Positions 5,912-51,085 are shown, counted from the stretch's first letter. The stretch: 64,000 bases of DNA from Natrinema salinisoli (GCF_020405205.1 NZ_CP084469.1:1-64000), one strand, 5' to 3'. The notes: generated from the letters alone by a model not told the origin. Translations and numbers: made by a program.

Positions 5912-8900
5912 ATGGCAGACGCTGTGAGAGTCATGAGAACGAGACAGATACGGGCAACGACACTCGCTGCCCTGGTCGTTTTGTCACTCGTTGCTGCACC
6001 GTTCGGAGTCGCAGGAATGAGTGATGCAGAACCGACCACAGAACGTATCGACGCACAGAACGACGATCTGAATCAGGTCGTCGAGACCGTTAACAACAAC
6101 GAAATCGCGACCGCAAACGACGCGATCACGTCGTTCAACAGCCAACTGCAGGAGAAAGCGTCTCTCCTCAGTGTCGACGTCGAGAACGTCAGTTCCGTCG
6201 ACGCGGTCGAGGCCACGACGGTTCCGGAAGCTCAGGGCGAGGCCGATCGCCTCCGAACCGACCTCGATGCTCGAGAGACGGCGATCTTCGACAAGATCGT
6301 GACCGTGATCAACGAGGGCGGCGTCGCTGACGTCAACCGCTCGGAGATCCAGTCGCCCGCTGACGCACGTGAGGTTGCCGACCGTCTCGAGGAGGAAGGG
6401 GGCCTCGCGACACAGGCAGCCGAGTCGCTGCGAGACGCGGCCGACCTGATCGAAAACGATCTCAGACCGCCCCTCAATGGCGCTGCCGATCAGCTGGATT
6501 CAGTTCAACCGGCCACCGGTGCGGTTGAGGGAACCATCACGGATACTGACGGCGAACCGATCGCCAATGCGACCGTTACCGCCGGCGACCAGCAGACGAC
6601 GACCGACGAGAACGGCTCCTACGGTCTCGACCTCGAGCCCGGTGAGTACTCACTCGCCATCTCGGCCGATGGGTACCAAGACGCCAGTCAGAACGTCTCG
6701 GTCGAGGCCGACGCAACGACGACGGTCGACGTTACCCTCCAGCAGGAGGACGACGGCGGCTCGGACGAGGTCGGTGAGGTCGTCGAGAGCGTCAACAACA
6801 ACGAGATCCCGACCGCGAACGACGCGATCATGTCGTTCAATAGCCAACTCCAGGAGAAGGCGTCTCTCCTCAGCGTCGACGTCGAGAACGTCAGTTCCGT
6901 CGACGCGGTCGAAGCCCAGAGCGTCCCGGAGGCTCAGGACGAAGCCGATCGCCTCCGGGCTGACCTCGATGCTCGAGAGACGGCGATCTTCGACAAGATC
7001 GTGACCGTGATCAACGAAGGCGGGGTCGCCGACGTCAACCGCTCGGAGATCCAATCGCCCGCTGACGCACGCGAAGTTGCCGACCGTCTCGAGGAGGAAG
7101 GGGGCCTCGCGACGCAGGCGGCCGAATCGCTGCGAGACGCGGCCGATCTGATCGAAAACGATCTCAGGCCGCCGCTGAACGGCGGTGCCGACAAGCTCGA
7201 CGCACTCGAAGGCGAAGAGCCGACTACCGGTACGGTCGAGGGAACCGTCACCGATGCTGACGGTGACCCGATTGCCGGTGCCACGGTCACCGTCGGCAAC
7301 GAAACGGTGACGACTGCTGCGGACGGCTCGTACGCCGTCGATCTCGAGACCGGCGACTACACGCTCACCGTCTCGGCCGACGCCTACGAGGAGACCAGCG
7401 AGGACGTGACTGTCGAAGCCGACACGACCACGACTGTCGACGTCACACTGGAACTCACGCCCACTGACGGGACCCTCGAAGGCACCGTCACTGACGCGGA
7501 CGGCGAGCCGATCGCGGGTGCGACCGTCGCCGTTGACGACCAGCAGACGACGACCGACGAGAACGGCTCCTACAGCCTCGAACTCGAGGCCGGCGACTAC
7601 ACGCTCGCGGTCTCGGCCGAGGGCTACGAGGACGCCAGCCAGAACGTCACGATCGAGGTCGAAACGACCACGACCGCTGACGTGACGCTCGAGGAACGTC
7701 CCGGATCCGTCGAAGGGACCGTCACTGACGCCGACGGCGAGCCGGTCGCCGGCGCCACCGTCACTGTCGGTGATCAGCAGACGACGACCGGCGAGAACGG
7801 CTCCTACGCCGTCGATATCGAGCCGGGCGAGTACACGCTCGAGATCAGTGCCGAGGGCTATCAGGATGCCAGCGAAGACGTGACGGTCGAGGCCGGCGGA
7901 ACCACGACCGCCGACGTGACGCTGGAGCCCGTGCCGACTGACGGCACCCTCGAAGGCACCGTCACTGACACGGACGGCGAACCGATCGCCGATGCGACCG
8001 TCAGTGCCGGCGATCTGGAGACGACGACCGACGAGAACGGCACCTACAGTCTCCAACTCGAGGCCGGCGACTACACCCTCGAGGTCAGTGCCGAGGGGTA
8101 CGAGGACGCTAGCGAGGACGTGACGGTCGAGGTCGAATCGACCACGACTGCCGACGTCACCCTCGAAGAACGTCCCGGATCCGTCGAAGGAACCGTCACC
8201 GACGCTGCCGGCGAGCCGATCGCCGACGCGACCGTTACCGCCGGTGACGAAACGGTGATGACCGGCGACGATGGTACGTACGCCCTCGAGCTCGAACCGG
8301 GCGAGTACGCGCTCGAAGTCAGTGCTGAGGGCTACGAGACTGTCAGTGAAGACGTGACGGTCGACGCCGACGCGACTACGACCGTCGACGTCACGCTAGA
8401 AGCGGTCGATGGCACGCTCGAAGGTACTGTAACCGACATGAGCGGTGACGCGATCGCCGATGCGACCGTCACCGTCGGTGACCAGCAGACGACGACCGAC
8501 GACAACGGTACCTACAGCCTCGATCTCGAGCCCGGCGAGTACACGCTCACCGCCTCGGCCGAGAGCTACGAAGACGCCAGCCAGACCGTCTCGGTCGAAG
8601 CCGACGCGACCACGACCGCCGACGTGACGCTGGAGCCCGTGCCGACTGACGGGACTCTCGAAGGCACCGTTACTGACACGGATGGCGAGTCGATCGCTGG
8701 CGCGACAGTTACCGCCGGGGACCAGCAGACGACGACCGACGACAACGGCACTTACAGCCTCGACCTCGAGGCCGGCGACTACACCCTCGAGGTCAGCGCC
8801 GAGGGCTACGAGGACGCCAGCCAGAACGTCTCGATCGAGGTCGAATCGACCACGACCGCAGACGTCACCCTCGAAGAAGCGACCGGAGCCGTCGAAGGAA

Positions 8901-10903
8901 CCGTTACTGACGCCGACGGTGAACCGGTCGCCGACGCGACCGTCACCGCCGGTGACGAGACGGTGACGACCGACGAGAACGGTACCTACGCGCTCGAGCT
9001 CGAGCCCGGTGAGTACACGCTCGCCGTCTCGGTCGAGGGCTACGAAGACGCCAGCCAGAACGTCACGGTCGACGCCGACGCGATCACGACCGCTGACGTG
9101 ACGCTGGAGCCCGTGCCGACTGACGGGACTCTCGAAGGCACGGTCACTGATACGGACGGCGACGCGATCGCCAACGCGACCGTTGCCGCCGGTGACCGGC
9201 AGACCACGACCGACGACAACGGCACCTACGACCTCGAACTCGAGGCCGGTGACTACGCGGTCACCGTCTCGGCCGAGGGCTACGAGGATGCCAGCGAGAA
9301 CGTCACGGTCGACGCCGACGCGACCACGACGCTCGACGTCGCCCTCCAGCGTGAGGAATCCGATCCGATCTCGGAGACCGTCGAGCGCGTTAACGAAAAC
9401 GAGATCGCCGAGACGAACGACGAACTCGAGGACTTCAACGAGAAGGTCGACAATCAGACGTCGGAGATCGATGACAAGTTCGACGACGTCGAATCGGTCG
9501 AGGAGGTCGAAGCCAGCGACGCCGAGGCGGCGTCCGCCGAGGCCGACCGCCTGCGCGCCGACGCTGACGACCGGCAGGCGACCGTCTTCGAGACGGTCGT
9601 CGCCGTAATCAACGCGCGAGCGCCGGACATCGTCTCCCCGATCGTCGACCCCGACGACGTCACCACGCCCGACGAGGCTCGGGAAGAGGGTGAACGCATC
9701 GAAGAGGAGTACGGCGACGTCTCCGACGACGCCGCACTCGCGAACGAGTCGCTGCACAACGCGGCCGACCTCGTCGAGTTCACCGTCCAGCCGAACCTGA
9801 ACGGCGCGGCCGACCAGCTCGAAAACGTGTCGCAGGGCACGGTCGAAGGCACCGTTACGGACGCCGACGGCGAACCGATCGCCGACGCGACCGTCGCCGC
9901 CGGTGACCAGCAGACGGCGACCGACGAGAACGGCACCTACAGCCTCGACCTCGAGCCGGGCGAGTACACGCTCGCGGTCAGTGCTGACGGCTACGAGGAC
10001 GCCAGCGAGAACGTCACGGTCGAGGCCGCTGCAACCACGACCGCCGACGTGACGCTGGAAGCCGAACCGACCGACGGAACGCTCGAAGGGACCGTCACTG
10101 ACGCCGACGGCGAACCGATCACCGGCGCGACCGTCACTGTCGGTGACCAGGAGACGACGACCGACGAGACCGGCTCCTACGCCCTCGACCTCGAGGCCGG
10201 CGAGTACACGCTCACCGTCTCGGCCGAAGGGTACGAGGACGCCAGCGAGGACGTCACGATCGAGGTCGACGAGACGACGACGGTCGATGTGACGCTCACC
10301 GAAACGGCACCCGAACCCGACGCCGACGTTATCGTCGACGCGGACGTCGACGAGGAGAACGTTACAGTCGGTGAGACGGTCACCGTCGACACGGACATCG
10401 AGTCCGCGACGGACGAGGAGATCGAGGTCGGCCAGTACACGCTCGTCATGCGCTACGATTCCGACGCCCTCGAGTTCACGGGCATCGACCGACCCGGTTG
10501 GCAGGTCGTCGACATCGAGAGCGCGGGCATTCTGGTCGTCGATCGAGCGTGGGTCCCGCCGGGACAGACCGACACGCCCGTCGACGCCTTCAGCGCCGAG
10601 TTCCAGGCCGTCGACGGTGCCGGTGAGGACACAGGCCTCGAATTCGATGCGAGAGCGTCCGGCGTCGAGGAACGCGTGTTCCTGTGGAAGACGCAGCCGC
10701 TCGACGCGGAATACGACGGCGCGACCGTCGGCATCGAGGAGTCCGAAGACGGCGAGGTCGAAGAGCCGCCATCGGACGCGCCCGAGTACTCGGACGAACT
10801 CCCCGTCATCTGGGACGGGCTGACCGGCTTCAGCGGCATGGCCGGAGTCGAGACCGACGCGACTCCGATAGACGATCGAGGGCCCGTGCCCGCTTCGTCC
10901 TGA
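5912..10903 (+). CDS. Giant secreted repeat protein: 12 CarboxypepD_reg-like domains, 3 helical modules, cohesin-like C-terminus
   Basis: The product is about 1,663 residues and probably extracellular. A Sec-type signal peptide (basic MRTRQIR then LAALVVLSLVAAPFGVAG) comes first; the start may be 5912 or the ATG at 5933. The order is: helical module A (about 52-199), beta domain 1, helical module A' (about 290-433), beta domains 2-10 in tandem, a diverged helical module (about 1150-1305), beta domains 11-12, a cohesin-like domain (about 1470-1605) and a short tail. Each beta domain of about 76 residues follows EGTVTDADGEPI..ATV..G...T..dG.Y.l.L..G.YtL.VsA.GYe, the carboxypeptidase-regulatory/prealbumin-like fold. 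No PGF-CTERM or LPXTG-type anchor is visible, nor any enzymatic domain. Adhesin or surface scaffold is inference. Confidence 0.88.
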   Translation: MADAVRVMRTRQIRATTLAALVVLSLVAAPFGVAGMSDAEPTTERIDAQNDDLNQVVETVNNNEIATANDAITSFNSQLQEKASLLSVDVENVSSVDAVEATTVPEAQGEADRLRTDLDARETAIFDKIVTVINEGGVADVNRSEIQSPADAREVADRLEEEGGLATQAAESLRDAADLIENDLRPPLNGAADQLDSVQPATGAVEGTITDTDGEPIANATVTAGDQQTTTDENGSYGLDLEPGEYSLAISADGYQDASQNVSVEADATTTVDVTLQQEDDGGSDEVGEVVESVNNNEIPTANDAIMSFNSQLQEKASLLSVDVENVSSVDAVEAQSVPEAQDEADRLRADLDARETAIFDKIVTVINEGGVADVNRSEIQSPADAREVADRLEEEGGLATQAAESLRDAADLIENDLRPPLNGGADKLDALEGEEPTTGTVEGTVTDADGDPIAGATVTVGNETVTTAADGSYAVDLETGDYTLTVSADAYEETSEDVTVEADTTTTVDVTLELTPTDGTLEGTVTDADGEPIAGATVAVDDQQTTTDENGSYSLELEAGDYTLAVSAEGYEDASQNVTIEVETTTTADVTLEERPGSVEGTVTDADGEPVAGATVTVGDQQTTTGENGSYAVDIEPGEYTLEISAEGYQDASEDVTVEAGGTTTADVTLEPVPTDGTLEGTVTDTDGEPIADATVSAGDLETTTDENGTYSLQLEAGDYTLEVSAEGYEDASEDVTVEVESTTTADVTLEERPGSVEGTVTDAAGEPIADATVTAGDETVMTGDDGTYALELEPGEYALEVSAEGYETVSEDVTVDADATTTVDVTLEAVDGTLEGTVTDMSGDAIADATVTVGDQQTTTDDNGTYSLDLEPGEYTLTASAESYEDASQTVSVEADATTTADVTLEPVPTDGTLEGTVTDTDGESIAGATVTAGDQQTTTDDNGTYSLDLEAGDYTLEVSAEGYEDASQNVSIEVESTTTADVTLEEATGAVEGTVTDADGEPVADATVTAGDETVTTDENGTYALELEPGEYTLAVSVEGYEDASQNVTVDADAITTADVTLEPVPTDGTLEGTVTDTDGDAIANATVAAGDRQTTTDDNGTYDLELEAGDYAVTVSAEGYEDASENVTVDADATTTLDVALQREESDPISETVERVNENEIAETNDELEDFNEKVDNQTSEIDDKFDDVESVEEVEASDAEAASAEADRLRADADDRQATVFETVVAVINARAPDIVSPIVDPDDVTTPDEAREEGERIEEEYGDVSDDAALANESLHNAADLVEFTVQPNLNGAADQLENVSQGTVEGTVTDADGEPIADATVAAGDQQTATDENGTYSLDLEPGEYTLAVSADGYEDASENVTVEAAATTTADVTLEAEPTDGTLEGTVTDADGEPITGATVTVGDQETTTDETGSYALDLEAGEYTLTVSAEGYEDASEDVTIEVDETTTVDVTLTETAPEPDADVIVDADVDEENVTVGETVTVDTDIESATDEEIEVGQYTLVMRYDSDALEFTGIDRPGWQVVDIESAGILVVDRAWVPPGQTDTPVDAFSAEFQAVDGAGEDTGLEFDARASGVEERVFLWKTQPLDAEYDGATVGIEESEDGEVEEPPSDAPEYSDELPVIWDGLTGFSGMAGVETDATPIDDRGPVPASS
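6092..7182 (+). repeat. Direct repeat encoding helical modules A and A' (period 702 bp)
   Basis: About 390 bp starting at 6092 recur from 6794 with near-identical sequence and a constant 702-bp offset (234 codons, in frame). For example, ATCGAAAACG occurs at 6449 and 7151. The high nucleotide identity, including third positions, indicates a recent in-frame duplication of one helical module plus one beta domain. The third, diverged helical copy is near 9362-9830. Confidence 0.85.
7229..9353 (+). repeat. Tandem array of nine ~230-bp beta-domain repeats (units 2-10)
   Basis: Nine consecutive in-frame units of about 228-240 bp each encode one CarboxypepD_reg-like domain. Two linker types alternate (an Arg-Pro-Gly type and a Val-Pro-Thr-Asp-Gly type), which suggests amplification as two-unit blocks. 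Unit 1 lies apart at 6518-6745, and units 11 and 12 at 9836-10303. The array should be prone to recombination and copy-number change. Confidence 0.85.
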
Positions 10904-44735: not shown

Positions 44736-46514
44736 TCAGTGTCTCACTCGAAGTCGTCCCCGGTCGTCGTATCTGAACCCGGCGTTTTCGAACGCGGCCC
44801 GTACCGCGTCGACGTCGAGTTCACCGTCCGATCCGAGAAACGGCGTCTCGGGGTCGTTCCCGGTCCACTCGAGGCGTTCCGGGATCCACTCCTCGGTAAC
44901 GGGAGTCGCGACGGGTCGTGCATACCCGTGGAATATCTCGTCGCAGACCCACTGTTTGTCGATCAGACCGGCGATAACGCGCCGGAACCGATAGTTGTTG
45001 AACGGTGCGCGACGCGCGTTGAAACCGAGGAAATAAAACGACCACGACGCCGATTCGATCCGCTCGACGCTGCCTGACTCCTCGACATCGCCGATCGCGT
45101 TGGCCTCGAGCGGGAGACTCGTCACGTCTCGGGCGTCGTTTGCGACGGCCTGAGCCGCTGAAACGCTGCCCGGATCGATGAAGAACGTACAGTCGTCGAC
45201 CGCCGGTTCCGACAGATCGACGGCCGTCCGGGTCGTGAAGTGGTCCTCGAACCGCTCGAGAACGACCTGATCGCCCTCGGTTCGATTGACGAACTGGAAT
45301 GGGCCGCTTCCGATTGCCGGGACGTTGTTCGTGACGACCGTTTCCGTCGTTCCCTGCGCGATGCTTGCATCACCCGTACCCAGAACTTCGGCCGCCCGTT
45401 CGCGCCAGCGGTGGGCCGGGAGTATCGGCACGAGCAGTGCACGTTCGCCGACCGTCTCGTTCGTCCCGACCGTGAACTCGAGGTGGTGGTCGTGCTGGAT
45501 GTCGATCGATTCGACAGCAGCGACCTGTCCCCGAAACCGGGGGGCGGGCGAGGGCGCTTCGAGGGCTCCGAGCGAGATATCCTTGAACAGTCGATACGAA
45601 AACGCGACGTCCTCGGCAGTCACCGGCTCACCGTCGTGAAATTCACATCCCTCTCGGAGGGACACATCGACGGTTCGACCGGCCCAGTCCCACGACTCGG
45701 CGAGCCACGGCTGGATCTCGTCGGTCCCGTTCTGCGTAGCGAGCGAATCGTACAACAGATTCGTGACCGTTCCCTCGCGGCGGTAGTCTGCCGCCAGCGG
45801 ATTGAGGTTTTCCGTCGGTCTGGCGTCGGCGTGACTGACCCGAAGCTCCTCGACGTCCGTGGCGGGCTCGAGACCGAGATAGCCGTGGCGCGTCGCAAGG
45901 TGACCGTTCTCCCAGCCGTCGAACCGATCGGTCCTGACGACGCGGTGTTCCTCGGGGACACAGATCGGCACGAACGGCTGTTCGGTCGCGATCGACTCGA
46001 GTATCTCCGTGATGACGGTACTGCGGTCATCACCACTGACGCGGCGTTGCTTCTCGAGGAGTTGATCCAGGTCCTGATCGGCGTATCCGAACGGGTTTTG
46101 CCATCCCGATTCGTCAGCGTATCGCGAGTACAACGCTTCGTAGAGGAAATCCGGGTCGGTTCCGGCCGGATGACGACCGATGCAGATGTCGAAATTGTGA
46201 TCGTACAGGACCGTTCGCAGGAAGTCGATGTCGGACCTGATATCGAGCGACACGTCGATGCCGGCGGCTTCGAAGTGCTTCTCGAGACGACGAGCGATCC
46301 GGACGTTCTGTCTGGCGGAGTCCGCCGGAATCGTGGTAATCGAGACGGAGAGCTGTCCGATGTTGTCGGGCGTGACGATGTTCCGGACTCCTCGAAGACA
46401 ACCGCTACTCGAGACCGTCAGTCCGGCCGTTGCTGCCAGCATCGCACGACGACTGCGGGTCCCGCCGTCACCGCCGCGGCCGTCCTGATTCTGGGCGGTT
46501 CGTCTCCTGTTCAT
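44736..46514 (-). CDS. Family-5 ABC solute-binding lipoprotein, circularly permuted (copy 1)
   Basis: The 592-residue protein has a twin-arginine signal (SRRAMLAATAG) and lipobox Cys at about 39. Its segments are in the reverse of the usual SBP_bac_5 order. Residues about 52-222 (RIARRLEKHFEAAGIDVSLD, GTDPDFLYEALYSRYADESG, then PFVPICVPEEHRVV) correspond to the normally C-terminal lobe. Residues about 238-592 (NPLAADYRREG, LLYDSL, PWLAESWDW, REGCEFHDGEPVTAEDVAFS, FYFLGFNARRAPF) are normally N-terminal to central and end in a helix that would normally lead into the first segment. It would bind a peptide or oligosaccharide at the membrane surface. A paralogue is at 47539-49335; no permease or ATPase is nearby. 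Confidence 0.9.
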   Translation of the reverse strand: MNRRRTAQNQDGRGGDGGTRSRRAMLAATAGLTVSSSGCLRGVRNIVTPDNIGQLSVSITTIPADSARQNVRIARRLEKHFEAAGIDVSLDIRSDIDFLRTVLYDHNFDICIGRHPAGTDPDFLYEALYSRYADESGWQNPFGYADQDLDQLLEKQRRVSGDDRSTVITEILESIATEQPFVPICVPEEHRVVRTDRFDGWENGHLATRHGYLGLEPATDVEELRVSHADARPTENLNPLAADYRREGTVTNLLYDSLATQNGTDEIQPWLAESWDWAGRTVDVSLREGCEFHDGEPVTAEDVAFSYRLFKDISLGALEAPSPAPRFRGQVAAVESIDIQHDHHLEFTVGTNETVGERALLVPILPAHRWRERAAEVLGTGDASIAQGTTETVVTNNVPAIGSGPFQFVNRTEGDQVVLERFEDHFTTRTAVDLSEPAVDDCTFFIDPGSVSAAQAVANDARDVTSLPLEANAIGDVEESGSVERIESASWSFYFLGFNARRAPFNNYRFRRVIAGLIDKQWVCDEIFHGYARPVATPVTEEWIPERLEWTGNDPETPFLGSDGELDVDAVRAAFENAGFRYDDRGRLRVRH

Positions 46515-46546
46515 TTCGTTCGTTTATTACAGTTGAAGAGCCACGC

Positions 46547-46561
46547 TATAACAGTATTGCG
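46547..46561 (-). promoter_or_regulatory. Promoter core shared with the second binding-protein gene (copy 1)
   Basis: On the minus strand this reads CGCAATACTGTTATA, 33-47 nt before the ATG at 46514. It combines an upstream CGCAATAC element with a TTATA box. The identical 15-mer stands before the paralogous gene at 49369-49383. Confidence 0.7.
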
Positions 46562-46672
46562 CTCTCCGTTACCCCGATTGCGTGGGTCGATCGTCGGGGA
46601 CTGCAGCGGTTTGCGGCTGGGTCGTGACCGGCGCTGGTCCGCCACCGGGCACGATTGACAATGCGTGCCCAG

Positions 46673-47533
46673 TCAATCGCTCCGTTCCCACGGTAACTGC
46701 TCTTCGTACTGTTGCAATCGGTCTTCGAAGAGGTCGGAGAGTGACCAGCGATCGACGAGCCGATCCGAGAGTTCGACGCAAAGCGCTGCGAGCAGTAATC
46801 CCGCGGCGACGTCGATCCCCCAGTGGATCCCGAGGTACATCGTCGAGATCGCGACGCTGGCTGCCAGTACGACCGCGACGGGGAACCACCGCGGAAACTC
46901 CGAGCGAGTTATCGCTGCGAACGCCGCGACGGTCGCCGAAAGCGACGTGTGAAGCGACGGAAAGACGTTGGTGTTGCTGTTGACCTCACTGGTGATATAC
47001 CGGTACTGGTAGTTGATGTCGAACAGCATGGTTTCCGCGACTTCGGCTGGCATCAGGTTCCGGGGACCGTACGCGATTACGAAGACGTACAGCACGAGCC
47101 CGATCGCGTAATTGAGCGCGTATGCTGTCAACAGTCGACGAAAAATCCGTGTGTCGGGGAGTGTGAAATAGGCGATCACCGGAAAGATCAGGAGGAACGT
47201 ATAGCCGTAGATGTAGATCAACGAGAAGTACGTGTTCAGCTCGGGCGTTGCGATCGACTGGAAGACCAGGATAAACTCCCCCTCGATATTGTAAAACCAG
47301 GAGGTGAGATGGAGCCCGATCTCCCGGGAGAGCCGCGGTGCTCGTTGCCTGGCGAATCGATTGATCAGCAAGATGAAGAGCAAGACGCCGACGGTCGGCC
47401 CGGCAGTTCTGAGCCGGGATCGCCACTCCGAGCGCGTTCGTGCGAGGCGCTCGCGGCCGACGAAGACGGCTATCGAAAGCGGGAGGAGAATCCCGATTAC
47501 GACGACGAGTTGTATCAGCACCTCAACGAGCAT
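46673..47533 (-). CDS. PAP2-family membrane phosphatase (AUR1/inositolphosphotransferase-like)
   Basis: The 286-residue protein has about six hydrophobic helices and the PAP2 signature: FPSLHTSLSATVAAFAAITR (about 189-208) with the catalytic His, and MYLGIHWGIDVAAGLLLAAL (about 231-250) with the second His and Asp. The first motif (K..RP) is weak, and YGPRNLMPAEV takes its place, as in AUR1/inositol-phosphorylceramide-synthase-like members. It acts on lipid or isoprenoid phosphates at the outer face of the membrane. It starts 5 bp after the stop of binding protein copy 2, so it is in its operon. An enzymatic link with the binding proteins is inference. Confidence 0.88.
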   Translation of the reverse strand: MLVEVLIQLVVVIGILLPLSIAVFVGRERLARTRSEWRSRLRTAGPTVGVLLFILLINRFARQRAPRLSREIGLHLTSWFYNIEGEFILVFQSIATPELNTYFSLIYIYGYTFLLIFPVIAYFTLPDTRIFRRLLTAYALNYAIGLVLYVFVIAYGPRNLMPAEVAETMLFDINYQYRYITSEVNSNTNVFPSLHTSLSATVAAFAAITRSEFPRWFPVAVVLAASVAISTMYLGIHWGIDVAAGLLLAALCVELSDRLVDRWSLSDLFEDRLQQYEEQLPWERSD

Positions 47534-47538
47534 CGGTC

Positions 47539-49335
47539 CTAGTACCCCCCAAGGAGTCGCCCGTTATCATCGTATCGGAACCCGGCTCGCTCGAACGCCG
47601 CTTTCGCAGCGTCGACGTTGAGGGTGCCGTCGGTACCGACGAACGGCGTCTCCGGATCCTCGCCGTCCCACTCGAGGGCCTGCGGAACCCACTCGTCGGT
47701 CACCGGTGTTGCGACGGGCGATGCGTTCTCGTCGAACACGTCCGCCACGATCGTTTCCTTGTCCAGTAACTGTGCGACCGCTCTCCGGAAGTGCGGGTTG
47801 CTACAGGGTGCGTTCCGGACGTTGAATCCGAGATGATAAAACATCCGTGAGGGGTACTGCAGGCGTCTAATCTCCGACGAATCAGGGATCGCCGGCAGCG
47901 AATGCGCGCTCAGCATCGACGCTGTCACGTCAGCACCGCCGTCCTCGACCCGACGGATCGAGGAGACGCTTCCGGGGTCGACGGTGAACCGCAACTCGTC
48001 GACCGTCGCTTCGGGGAGTCCGACGTCTTCCCGGCGGGTGAAGTGGTTCCGGTATCGCGCCAAGACGAGCGACTCCGCTTCCGTCCGACTATCGACCCGG
48101 AACGGACCGCTTCCGACAGGCGACACCTCGTTCGTGTTGACGACGTCCCATCGGCCCTGTGATGCGGTGAAATCGCCGTCTGAGGCCCGCTGGTCGACCT
48201 GCTCGCGCCACACGTGCTCGGGCAAGATCGGAACGGTAAGCGCTCGTTCGCCGGTCTCCTGCCCGCCCACGACGGTGATCGTCAGCTGATACTCGTCCTC
48301 GATCGTCACGTCGTCGATCAGGTCGACGTGACCCTGATACCGCGGTGCCGGCGATTTGACGGAGGCTCGTCCCAGCGACGTATCCTCGAGAAACCGGTAC
48401 GTGAAAGCGACGTCGTCGGCGGTCACCGGTTCGCCATCGTGGAACTCACAGTCCTCGCGTAGGGTGACCGTCGCGGTCAGCGTCGACTCCTCGCTCTGCG
48501 AGCCGGTGTTGGAATCCGCCGGCTCGTCCCACTCCCACGACTGCGCGAGCCACGGCCGGATCTCGCCGTCGTGTTCGGTTCCGAGCGAGTCGTACAGGAG
48601 ATCGATCGTCGTCCCGCGCTTCCGAAGCGTCGCCGAGAGCGGATTCAGGTTCTCCGTCATCCGGCTGCCGGTTACCAGCGCCCGGAGCTCGTCTACGCCC
48701 TCGGCCGGGTCGAGACCCAGATACCCGTGTCGCGTCGCGAGGTGGCCGTCTTCCCACCCGGTGAACCGATCGGGGTTGGCGACGTGGTACTCGTCGGGGA
48801 TACAGATCGGCACGAAGGGTTTCTCCCGCGCCAGCGCTTTCAAGACCGTTTCGATGCGTTCCTCGCGTTTCTCGCCGTCGACTCGCCGCTGTTTCTCCAG
48901 GAGGGTGTCGAAGTAGATGTTGGCGAACCCGAAGGGGTTCTGCCACCCGGCTTCGCCGGCGAACGTGGAGTGGAGGGCTTCGTAGAGGAAGTCGGGATCG
49001 TAGTCGGCGGGGTGAAGGCCGACGTAGCAATCGAATTCGTGTTCGATCAGCACTGCCTCCAGCAGCTCCGAGCGCGACCGCATGTCGAGTGAGACGTCGA
49101 TTCCGACCCGCTCGAGGTTCGCTTCGAGCCGGCGGGCGATCCGGATGTTCTGGCGGTCCGAGTCGGCGGGCATCGTCATGATCGACAGCGAGACCTGTTC
49201 GTCGTCCACCGTGTTGACGACGCTTTGGACGCGGTCGATGCAACCGCTCGTCGCGACCGTACCGGCGGTCGCACTCGCAGCGAGGAAGGAACGTCTGCTG
49301 ACGCCATCGTCAGCGGGGGAGGGGGTCCAATTCAT
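47539..49335 (-). CDS. Family-5 ABC solute-binding lipoprotein, circularly permuted (copy 2)
   Basis: The 598-residue protein begins MNWTPSPADDGVSRRSFLAA, a Tat signal with lipobox Cys at about 32. As in copy 1, the lobe order is permuted: RIARRLEANLERVGIDVSLD and YDPDFLYEALHSTFAGEAGW come first, then NPLSATLRKRGTT, LLYDSLGTE, PWLAQSWEW, REDCEFHDGEPVTADDVAF and FYHLGFNVRNAP, ending in FERAGFRYDDNGRL. It is followed by PAP2 after 5 bp. The two copies diverged well after duplication, which implies an established permuted family. No ATPase or permease accompanies them, so they must use a distant transporter or act as receptors. Confidence 0.9.
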   Translation of the reverse strand: MNWTPSPADDGVSRRSFLAASATAGTVATSGCIDRVQSVVNTVDDEQVSLSIMTMPADSDRQNIRIARRLEANLERVGIDVSLDMRSRSELLEAVLIEHEFDCYVGLHPADYDPDFLYEALHSTFAGEAGWQNPFGFANIYFDTLLEKQRRVDGEKREERIETVLKALAREKPFVPICIPDEYHVANPDRFTGWEDGHLATRHGYLGLDPAEGVDELRALVTGSRMTENLNPLSATLRKRGTTIDLLYDSLGTEHDGEIRPWLAQSWEWDEPADSNTGSQSEESTLTATVTLREDCEFHDGEPVTADDVAFTYRFLEDTSLGRASVKSPAPRYQGHVDLIDDVTIEDEYQLTITVVGGQETGERALTVPILPEHVWREQVDQRASDGDFTASQGRWDVVNTNEVSPVGSGPFRVDSRTEAESLVLARYRNHFTRREDVGLPEATVDELRFTVDPGSVSSIRRVEDGGADVTASMLSAHSLPAIPDSSEIRRLQYPSRMFYHLGFNVRNAPCSNPHFRRAVAQLLDKETIVADVFDENASPVATPVTDEWVPQALEWDGEDPETPFVGTDGTLNVDAAKAAFERAGFRYDDNGRLLGGY

Positions 49336-49368: not shown

Positions 49369-49383
49369 TATAACAGTATTGCG
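49369..49383 (-). promoter_or_regulatory. Promoter core shared with the first binding-protein gene (copy 2)
   Basis: On the minus strand the 15-mer CGCAATACTGTTATA stands 34-48 nt before the ATG at 49335, followed by TATCAAATG. The TTATA portion is the TATA box; the CGCAATAC part may be a BRE or activator site. It is identical to 46547-46561. Confidence 0.7.
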
Positions 49384-49544: not shown

Positions 49545-49823
49545 ATGGACGTCGCGGCCGAGCGGATCGAGCGCCTGCACGAGCTCGCTCGAGCGGCGGC
49601 AGCCGACGGTGCGGACGATCGGGCTCGCTACTACGTCCGCCTCGCGCGGCGAGTCGCGGAACGAAACCGACTGACGCTCCCGCGCGAGTTTCGCCGGTTC
49701 AGCTGCGATCGCTGTGATGCGTACCTTCGGCCGGGGAAGAACGCACGCGTCAGATTACAGGACGGTCACGTCGTAATCACCTGTGACTGCGGTGCACACG
49801 CCAGGTATCCCTACGAGTCGTGA
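49545..49823 (+). CDS. rnp4: RNase P protein component 4 (Rpp21/Rpr2)
   Basis: The 92-residue protein has the Rpp21 pattern: an N-terminal helix-turn-helix (RIERLHELARAAAADGADDR) followed by a zinc ribbon with CDRC (about 55-58) and CDCG (about 82-85), with AYLRPGKNARVRLQDGHVVI between. It is a subunit of the archaeal RNase P, which removes tRNA 5' leaders, and binds the specificity side with Rpp29. It is followed by a YhbY protein and an MscS channel. The start is the ATG at 49545. Confidence 0.93.
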   Translation: MDVAAERIERLHELARAAAADGADDRARYYVRLARRVAERNRLTLPREFRRFSCDRCDAYLRPGKNARVRLQDGHVVITCDCGAHARYPYES

Positions 49824-49916
49824 TCGCCGCTCCGTTCCCAGTTCACCATCGCACACCCTCTATCGTCCCCGTCCGAATCGCGAAGATTGAAGCCGCTCGA
49901 TTCGTTAATCGGGGCC

Positions 49917-50165
49917 ATGGATAAACAGGAACTCAAGCGACGAGCCCACGATCTCGATGTCACGGTCTGGGTCGGCAAGAGTGGCATCGACTCGGTCGTC
50001 GACGAGCTCGACGACCAGCTCTCGGATCGAGACCTCGTGAAAGTGAAGCTCCTCCGCGCGTCGCGGGCGGGGAGTTCGACCGAGGAAAAGGCGGCCGACC
50101 TCGCTGATCGCGTCGACGCGGAACTGATCGAGACACGGGGCCATACGGCAGTGGTCCACCGATGA
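49917..50165 (+). CDS. YhbY/CRM-domain RNA-binding protein
   Basis: The 82-residue protein is a single CRM domain: KQELKRRAHDLDVTVWVGKS with the conserved VWVGKSG loop, DQLSDRDLVKVKLLR and ETRGHTAVVHR at the end. YhbY associates with pre-50S particles in bacteria, and CRM domains bind structured RNA. The start at 49917 is preferred to the GTG/ATG frame at 49887. It overlaps the MscS start by 4 bp (ATGA), so the two are co-translated. Confidence 0.93.
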   Translation: MDKQELKRRAHDLDVTVWVGKSGIDSVVDELDDQLSDRDLVKVKLLRASRAGSSTEEKAADLADRVDAELIETRGHTAVVHR

Positions 50166-51085
50166 CGATCGGGGCTGTTCCGTCGCCGTTACAGGCCACC
50201 GGACTCGGTCCGATCGGGAACGCGCTCGACGATGCCGGGCTCACGGCGACCCAGGCCGGAACGGCCGAAGGGGCGATCAAATTCGTCGTCGCGCTCGTCG
50301 CGATCTGGCTGGTCGGACGGCTCCTCGTGTTACCGCTGATCACCCGGGCGATGAACAGGCGCGAACTGGACAAACACGCGCAGAACCCGCTGTTGATGCT
50401 CTCGAGGTTCGGCATCGCGTTTGTCGGCTTCGCCATCGCGTTCGGCTTCGCCGGCTACGGGAACTTTCTGGTGTCGATGGCGGGCATCGCAGCGGCCGGC
50501 GCGCTCGCGATCGGGTTCGCGATGCAGGACGTGATCGCCAACTTCGTCGCGGGCGTGTTCATCTACACCGACAAGCCGTTCCGCATCGGCGACTGGATCG
50601 AGTGGGACGACGGCACGTACTCGGGCACCGTCGAGGACATCAGCCTCCGCGTGACCCGGGTCCGAACGTTCGACAACGAACTGCTCACCGTGCCGAACTC
50701 GTCGCTCACCGACGGCGTTCTCAAGAACCCCGTCGACGCGAACAAGCTCCGGCTGAAGTTCGTCTTCGGGATCGGCTACGACGACGACATCGAACGAGCG
50801 ACCGAGATCATCGTCGACGAGGCCGAGCGCCACCCCGACATCATGGACGATCCCGCGCCGTCCGTCCGACTGACGGAACTCGGCGACTCCGACGTCGGCC
50901 TCCAGTCGCGGTTCTGGATCTCGAACCCCTCCCGCGCCGACTTCGTTCGAACCCGCGGCGAGTACGTCACCGCGGTCAAACGTCGCTTCGACGAGGAGGG
51001 GATCGACATCCCCTACCCCGTCCGCACCCTCGAGGGCGGACTCGACCTCAAGAGCGGACAAAGCGTCGTGCAGCCGGCCGAATAG
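50162..51085 (+). CDS. MscS-family mechanosensitive ion channel
   Basis: The 307-residue protein has three N-terminal membrane helices, a pore-lining TM3 with the Gly/Ala pattern AGIAAAGALAIGFAMQDVIA (about 114-133) and the beta domain FIYTDKPFRIGDWIEWDDGT with the DISLRVTRVRTFDNELLTVPNS stretch. It opens upon hypo-osmotic shock to release solutes. It ends with an acidic C-terminal alpha/beta domain. Translationally coupled to the YhbY gene. Confidence 0.94.
   Translation: MTIGAVPSPLQATGLGPIGNALDDAGLTATQAGTAEGAIKFVVALVAIWLVGRLLVLPLITRAMNRRELDKHAQNPLLMLSRFGIAFVGFAIAFGFAGYGNFLVSMAGIAAAGALAIGFAMQDVIANFVAGVFIYTDKPFRIGDWIEWDDGTYSGTVEDISLRVTRVRTFDNELLTVPNSSLTDGVLKNPVDANKLRLKFVFGIGYDDDIERATEIIVDEAERHPDIMDDPAPSVRLTELGDSDVGLQSRFWISNPSRADFVRTRGEYVTAVKRRFDEEGIDIPYPVRTLEGGLDLKSGQSVVQPAE

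Follow-up and report, generated by a model that had tools for sequence, protein, structure and literature searches.

Exact circular permutation of the SBP_5 fold in two haloarchaeal lipoproteins encoded with a PAP2-family membrane enzyme

Both solute-binding proteins (SBPs) encoded between positions 44736 and 49335 of the window, the 64,000-nucleotide stretch of Natrinema salinisoli DNA analysed here, are exact circular permutations of the SBP_5 fold in which the Tat/lipobox signal still stands in front. The two Tat-exported lipoproteins are operonic with a PAP2_3 protein, and we consider it about an even bet (probability roughly 0.5) that they capture a ligand, likely not a peptide, for PAP2 and do not serve an importer. 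The open reading frames match the coordinates and strands initially annotated for both SBPs and for PAP2, with all three on the minus strand, and the locus is laid out as follows.

49369..49383, minus strand: conserved element CGCAATACTGTTATA upstream of SBP1
47539..49335, minus strand: circularly permuted SBP_5 lipoprotein 1 (SBP1), 598 aa, from Pfam, solved-chain matches, profile and AlphaFold
49240..49335, minus strand: Tat signal and lipobox of SBP1, residues 1–32 (SRRSFLAA..TSGC; TIGR01409), residues 9–34 matching profile positions 5–30
48784..49206, minus strand: SBP1 residues 44–184, canonical C-terminal part (profile 376–525; shuffle test)
47581..48672, minus strand: SBP1 residues 222–585, canonical N-terminal and middle part (profile 58–373)
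46673..47533, minus strand: PAP2_3 integral membrane phosphatase/phosphotransferase, 286 aa, motifs GPRN, FPSLHTS and GIHWxxDV
46547..46561, minus strand: the same element CGCAATACTGTTATA upstream of SBP2
44736..46514, minus strand: circularly permuted SBP_5 lipoprotein 2 (SBP2), paralogue of SBP1, 592 aa, from the open reading frame, Pfam and profile
45930..46349, minus strand: SBP2 residues 56–195, canonical C-terminal part (profile 381–529; shuffle test)
44847..45824, minus strand: SBP2 residues 231–556, canonical N-terminal part (profile 59–363)

The initial annotation had proposed that the two chains, which are 53% identical to each other, are circularly permuted and not truncated or fused, and this is borne out by profile, solved-chain alignments and the AlphaFold model. 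Against a canonical SBP_5 profile of 552 positions, made from 31 canonical-order haloarchaeal SBP_5 proteins, both SBPs come out in reversed order: a signal peptide, then profile positions 376–529, then 58–373. The block ends are complementary in both proteins, with no part duplicated and almost nothing lost, and a short stretch links the former C terminus to the former N terminus. Against the C-terminal part of the profile, the opening 186 residues of the mature chains reach 55.2 and 40.2 bits, where shuffled sequences (1000 each) give at most 6.2. Pfam assigns SBP_bac_5 (PF00496) to both SBPs with 154.8 and 155 bits (cut-off 32.4), but its best stretch starts only at residue 258–266 and ends near the C-terminus. 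Solved chains aligned with phmmer give the same reversal, query residues 37–195 matching 349–503 of 1xoc_A, while in 4pft_A query 230–544 matches 22–302 and query 128–195 matches 439–508. Both proteins share with SBP_bac_5/Cluster C receptors (OppA, DppA, AppA, NikA) the same fold parts, the motifs FHDGxPVTAxDV, GSGPF and DPD, and an export signal with lipobox, the twin-arginine motif being present in each; they differ from them in that the order of the parts is swapped and that the chain ends and anchor would lie in domain III. The canonical linear domain order is found in neither SBP by profile or by solved chains.

AlphaFold2, given 44 permuted relatives as input, predicts the whole chain with pLDDT 87 and pTM 0.86, low confidence being confined mainly to the signal region, and the predicted structure is a single, complete, two-lobed protein. 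The best structural matches of this model in Foldseek are all SBP_5 proteins with TM-scores of ∼0.4, which neither prove nor refute permutation because Foldseek follows chain order. An assembly artefact is ruled out because two paralogues occur here and the same order recurs in nearly all relatives examined. Among the 60 best listed of 118 PDB matches to a permuted profile there is no permuted-order chain; in these 60 the top-scoring stretch is limited to the N-terminal block, and a second, separate stretch is usually present. A named family of permuted SBPs was not found in NCBIfam, nor a description of a circularly permuted SBP_5 protein in the open-licence literature.

The position of the cut bears on how the permuted proteins are anchored. 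On 1xoc (AppA) the blocks meet at about 346/349, which by the domain boundaries of OppA/DppA is inside domain III (about residues 271–486 in OppA). The cut lies in the domain III loop past the 'AKAAFERAGF' ('AKxLLxxAGY') helix and ahead of the next strand, and not at a lobe boundary. The segment behind the lipobox, initially read as the normal C-terminal lobe, is indeed canonical C-terminal sequence, but it is not the whole lobe: this front block (about residues 44–195) holds the final stretch of domain III together with the tail of the canonical chain. With the cut placed there, the two new termini are both part of domain III, and the lipid anchor would have shifted from domain I in the canonical form to domain III in the permuted form. 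An altered hinge geometry, also raised initially, is not expected because the cut sits in a domain III loop. All permuted forms are cut within about 20 residues near one helix, the C1:3882565 group before the helix and the others after it. One permuted SBP, L115 (6733–8496, minus strand), ends in a C-terminal membrane anchor attached past the cut helix, so that both of its chain ends lie on domain III. A natural, lipid-tethered, circularly permuted binding protein has been described in TpMglB-2 (Tp0684), a Type I permutant classed as Type Ic/Cluster Bc; the authors consider that its topology could be an adaptation to anchoring (PMC4990184). In contrast to the proteins described here, TpMglB-2 has the Type I/Cluster B sugar-binding fold, is cut elsewhere in an unrelated event and has no PAP2 partner; all sequence and fold matches of the window SBPs are to SBP_5.

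The gene neighbourhood separates the branch of SBP1 and SBP2 (the PAP2 branch) from its relatives. The initial annotation had pointed to the PAP2 gene between the two SBP genes and to the lack of a nearby permease; the former arrangement is real and conserved across the order, and the latter holds for both SBPs and throughout the branch. Counting within 3 kb across the 67 branch members that have 900 bp or more of flank to each side, a set that includes close relatives and therefore does not represent independent draws, PAP2 is found in 65/67 (immediately downstream and co-oriented in 62) and a permease in 0/67, whereas canonical SBPs have PAP2 in 0/67 and a permease in 64/67, and operonic permuted SBPs have PAP2 in 0/20 and a permease in 19/20. 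Two branch members, L078 and L082, show no PAP2 within the available flank. The co-encoded OppB/OppC permease and ATPase of Opp/Dpp importers are thus missing from the PAP2 branch. Permutation and transporter loss are separate events, since close permuted relatives occupy complete ABC operons. The SBP–PAP2 pair occurs in many families of the order, and where relatives were searched for both genes, genomes without the branch PAP2 also lack the PAP2-type SBP; the one exception, G050, is explained by an SBP that runs off its contig. Haloferax gibbonsii has a single SBP–PAP2 pair, located on pHGLR2.

At the locus itself, the PAP2 reading frame begins 5 nt past the SBP1 stop codon. Natronorubrum bangense carries a tandem SBP–PAP2–SBP–PAP2 with 1-nt overlaps, and this unit is also found at other loci, from which it follows that the SBP–PAP2–SBP of the window has probably lost one PAP2. 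Genes for RNase P component 4, YhbY and MscS (window 49545–51085) adjoin the locus here and likewise in N. bangense (L220); with these neighbours common to both genomes, the cluster appears stably placed. The element CGCAATAYTGTTATA lies ∼44 nt 5′ of both SBP start codons (window 46547–46561 and 49369–49383, minus strand), has a self-complementary core, CARTAYTG, and is kept throughout the genus and in some other genera. The whole genome holds two exact copies, both at the SBP locus, and two copies with two mismatches; the element looks like a candidate for a dedicated operator or promoter.

The enzyme of the pair has intact catalytic residues. It scores 63.2 bits against the PAP2_3 profile (cut-off 27), the catalytic residues H195, H237 and D241 are invariant in 24 sequences, and the GPRN, PSLH, H and D motifs vary little or not at all. 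Among solved structures it is closest to PgpB, YodM, LpxE and Aur1 by sequence, with Aur1 first by fold, and for that reason it may transfer a phospho-head-group and not only hydrolyse. The window PAP2 shares its fold and catalytic motifs with Aur1, LpxE and PgpB, and differs from them in being archaeal and operonic with an SBP. A search of the open-licence literature for haloarchaeal PAP2 returned nothing relevant.

The SBPs of the branch carry their own pattern of conserved residues. Profile column 442 presumably corresponds to the Asp that in OppA and DppA (OppA D419/DppA D408) binds the amino terminus of the peptide. It is Asp in 56/68 canonical proteins, whereas Ala or Gly predominates in the PAP2 branch, where the alignment is gappy and the difference therefore a lead; the remaining permuted groups of haloarchaea do not conserve the Asp either. 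The branch has near-invariant residues of its own, for example Q472-N473-P474 (WQNP), Y299, G302 and D392, which suggests that its SBPs share one conserved ligand.

These features can be assembled into a mechanism, in which we infer the class of ligand, the direct cooperation of SBP and PAP2 and its direction, and the reaction. The chain would have been opened in the domain III loop and its old N and C ends fused, leaving the signal peptide and lipobox in front. The SBP would then be exported by Tat, lipidated and held at the membrane via domain III, where it would still fold as a two-lobed flytrap whose cleft takes up, on the outer side of the membrane, a conserved ligand that is probably not a peptide. 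No longer serving an ABC importer, the SBP of the PAP2 branch would hand this ligand, or signal its presence, to an outward-facing PAP2 active site. More tentatively, and on somewhat longer odds, the pair may form a two-component surface system conserved across the haloarchaea, in which the SBP, as a subunit, presents substrate to or regulates an outward-facing Aur1-like phosphotransferase/phosphatase and has its anchor repositioned so that the cleft faces the new partner, alongside a recurrent SBP_5 topology switch that always falls in the same domain III neighbourhood. The SBP–PAP2 operon is in either form a pointer to an uncharacterised cell-surface function in haloarchaea.

It is conceivable, though we think it rather doubtful, that the SBP is a ligand sensor that, with its flytrap closed, switches the activity of PAP2 or sends a signal by way of PAP2, with no delivery. 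SBPs are described as stimulating membrane receptors besides transporters, which gives such a role a precedent (PMC9602780). The tight two-gene operon, with an enzyme in the place of the transporter, would fit a sensor; against it, no signalling domain is known in PAP2_3 proteins, and the present data fit sensing and delivery alike. It is unlikely that the SBPs act as conventional receptors of an importer whose OppBC permease is unlinked, their link to PAP2 being incidental or a matter of shared regulation. Orphan SBPs that share a permease are generally known, the genome has several Opp operons, and operon structure pairs permuted SBPs with permeases in related operons, but the presence of PAP2 near 65 of 67 branch members across many families, with a permease near none, and the loss and gain of SBP and PAP2 together, argue against this reading and for capture on behalf of PAP2. 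Although circular permutations usually arise through a tandem duplication that is then trimmed, we reject as very improbable that the order seen here is an artefact of fusion or of tandem duplication in which copies have decayed, as each part is single, the block ends are complementary with a short linker, the model is one complete fold, and dozens of genomes show the same order.

Permuted SBP_5 proteins are distributed well beyond the window. The host genome encodes seven SBP_5 proteins, four permuted (SBP1, SBP2, C1:3882565 and C2:334233) and three canonical, and C1:3882565 and C2:334233 each lie in a complete OppB–OppC–ATPase operon. Permuted forms in complete Opp-type ABC operons occur in haloarchaea and alphaproteobacteria. 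In a phylum survey with domain-order checks, permuted SBPs were found across Halobacteria and elsewhere in only one further family, L112–L115. Plasmids of Nitratireductor, Maritalea, Microvirga, Neorhizobium, Roseomonas and Ketogulonicigenium carry contiguous permuted matches, six of which were verified by profile order, with an ABC operon wherever annotation exists. A contig scan with the L112–L115 proteins, which joins matching blocks whatever their order and was followed by a separate check of domain order, returned 82 SBPs, of which 80 are canonical and 2 permuted, both labelled Archaeoglobus/Archaeoglobi. The idea that permuted SBPs occur throughout archaea and bacteria was rejected, since whole-query matches proved canonical in 80/82. 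SBP_5 is among the largest receptor families of bacteria and archaea and is treated as having a single topology; the permuted forms are currently annotated as 'ABC transporter substrate-binding protein', and both annotation and profile searches hide their topology. Two alphaproteobacterial permuted-SBP operons, L219 and L223, adjoin genes for an M28 peptidase and a hydantoinase/oxoprolinase, a hint at the substrate of these operons. A draft genome, G048, has 29 SBP_5 matches, far above the other sampled genomes of the order.

The closest view of the permutation comes from a pair of Archaeoglobus-type proteins.

6827–8443, minus strand: L112, permuted SBP
7878–9476, plus strand: L133, canonical-order relative

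L112 and L133 are 84.7% identical over residues 213–539 of the former and 42–368 of the latter, and 87.1% identical over 49–211 and 368–530; judged by this identity they represent one protein arranged in two ways, through a recent natural permutation. The L112 gene lies on the strand opposite to its own permease operon, whereas in canonical relatives, L137 and L139 among them, gene and permease operon run in the same direction. Circular permutation inside the flytrap superfamily was reported with CPSARST between glycine-betaine binders and molybdate binders/CysB (PMC2395249). That set is very divergent (<24% identity), unlike the present case, in which both orders exist within one family at up to 85–87% identity. 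A permuted subfamily that spans two domains of life and arose independently at least three times, with nearly the same cut and a pair ∼85% identical, offers a natural experiment on the permutation of transport receptors.

The number of origins was estimated on trees of 63 and 128 proteins, for which permuted sequences were first rotated to canonical order. The topology label requires five changes on these trees, at least four of them forced by well-supported branches. A single origin of all permuted forms was rejected (AU p = 2e-81), whereas an origin shared by just the haloarchaeal and alphaproteobacterial groups was not (p = 0.056); that these groups are cut at different sites, before or after the helix, is therefore no proof of two separate events. 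By these tests at least three origins are needed, one for the haloarchaeal and alphaproteobacterial set, one for L112 and one for L115. Within the tree, the operonic permuted forms of alphaproteobacteria and haloarchaea interleave, which suggests transfer between domains of life.
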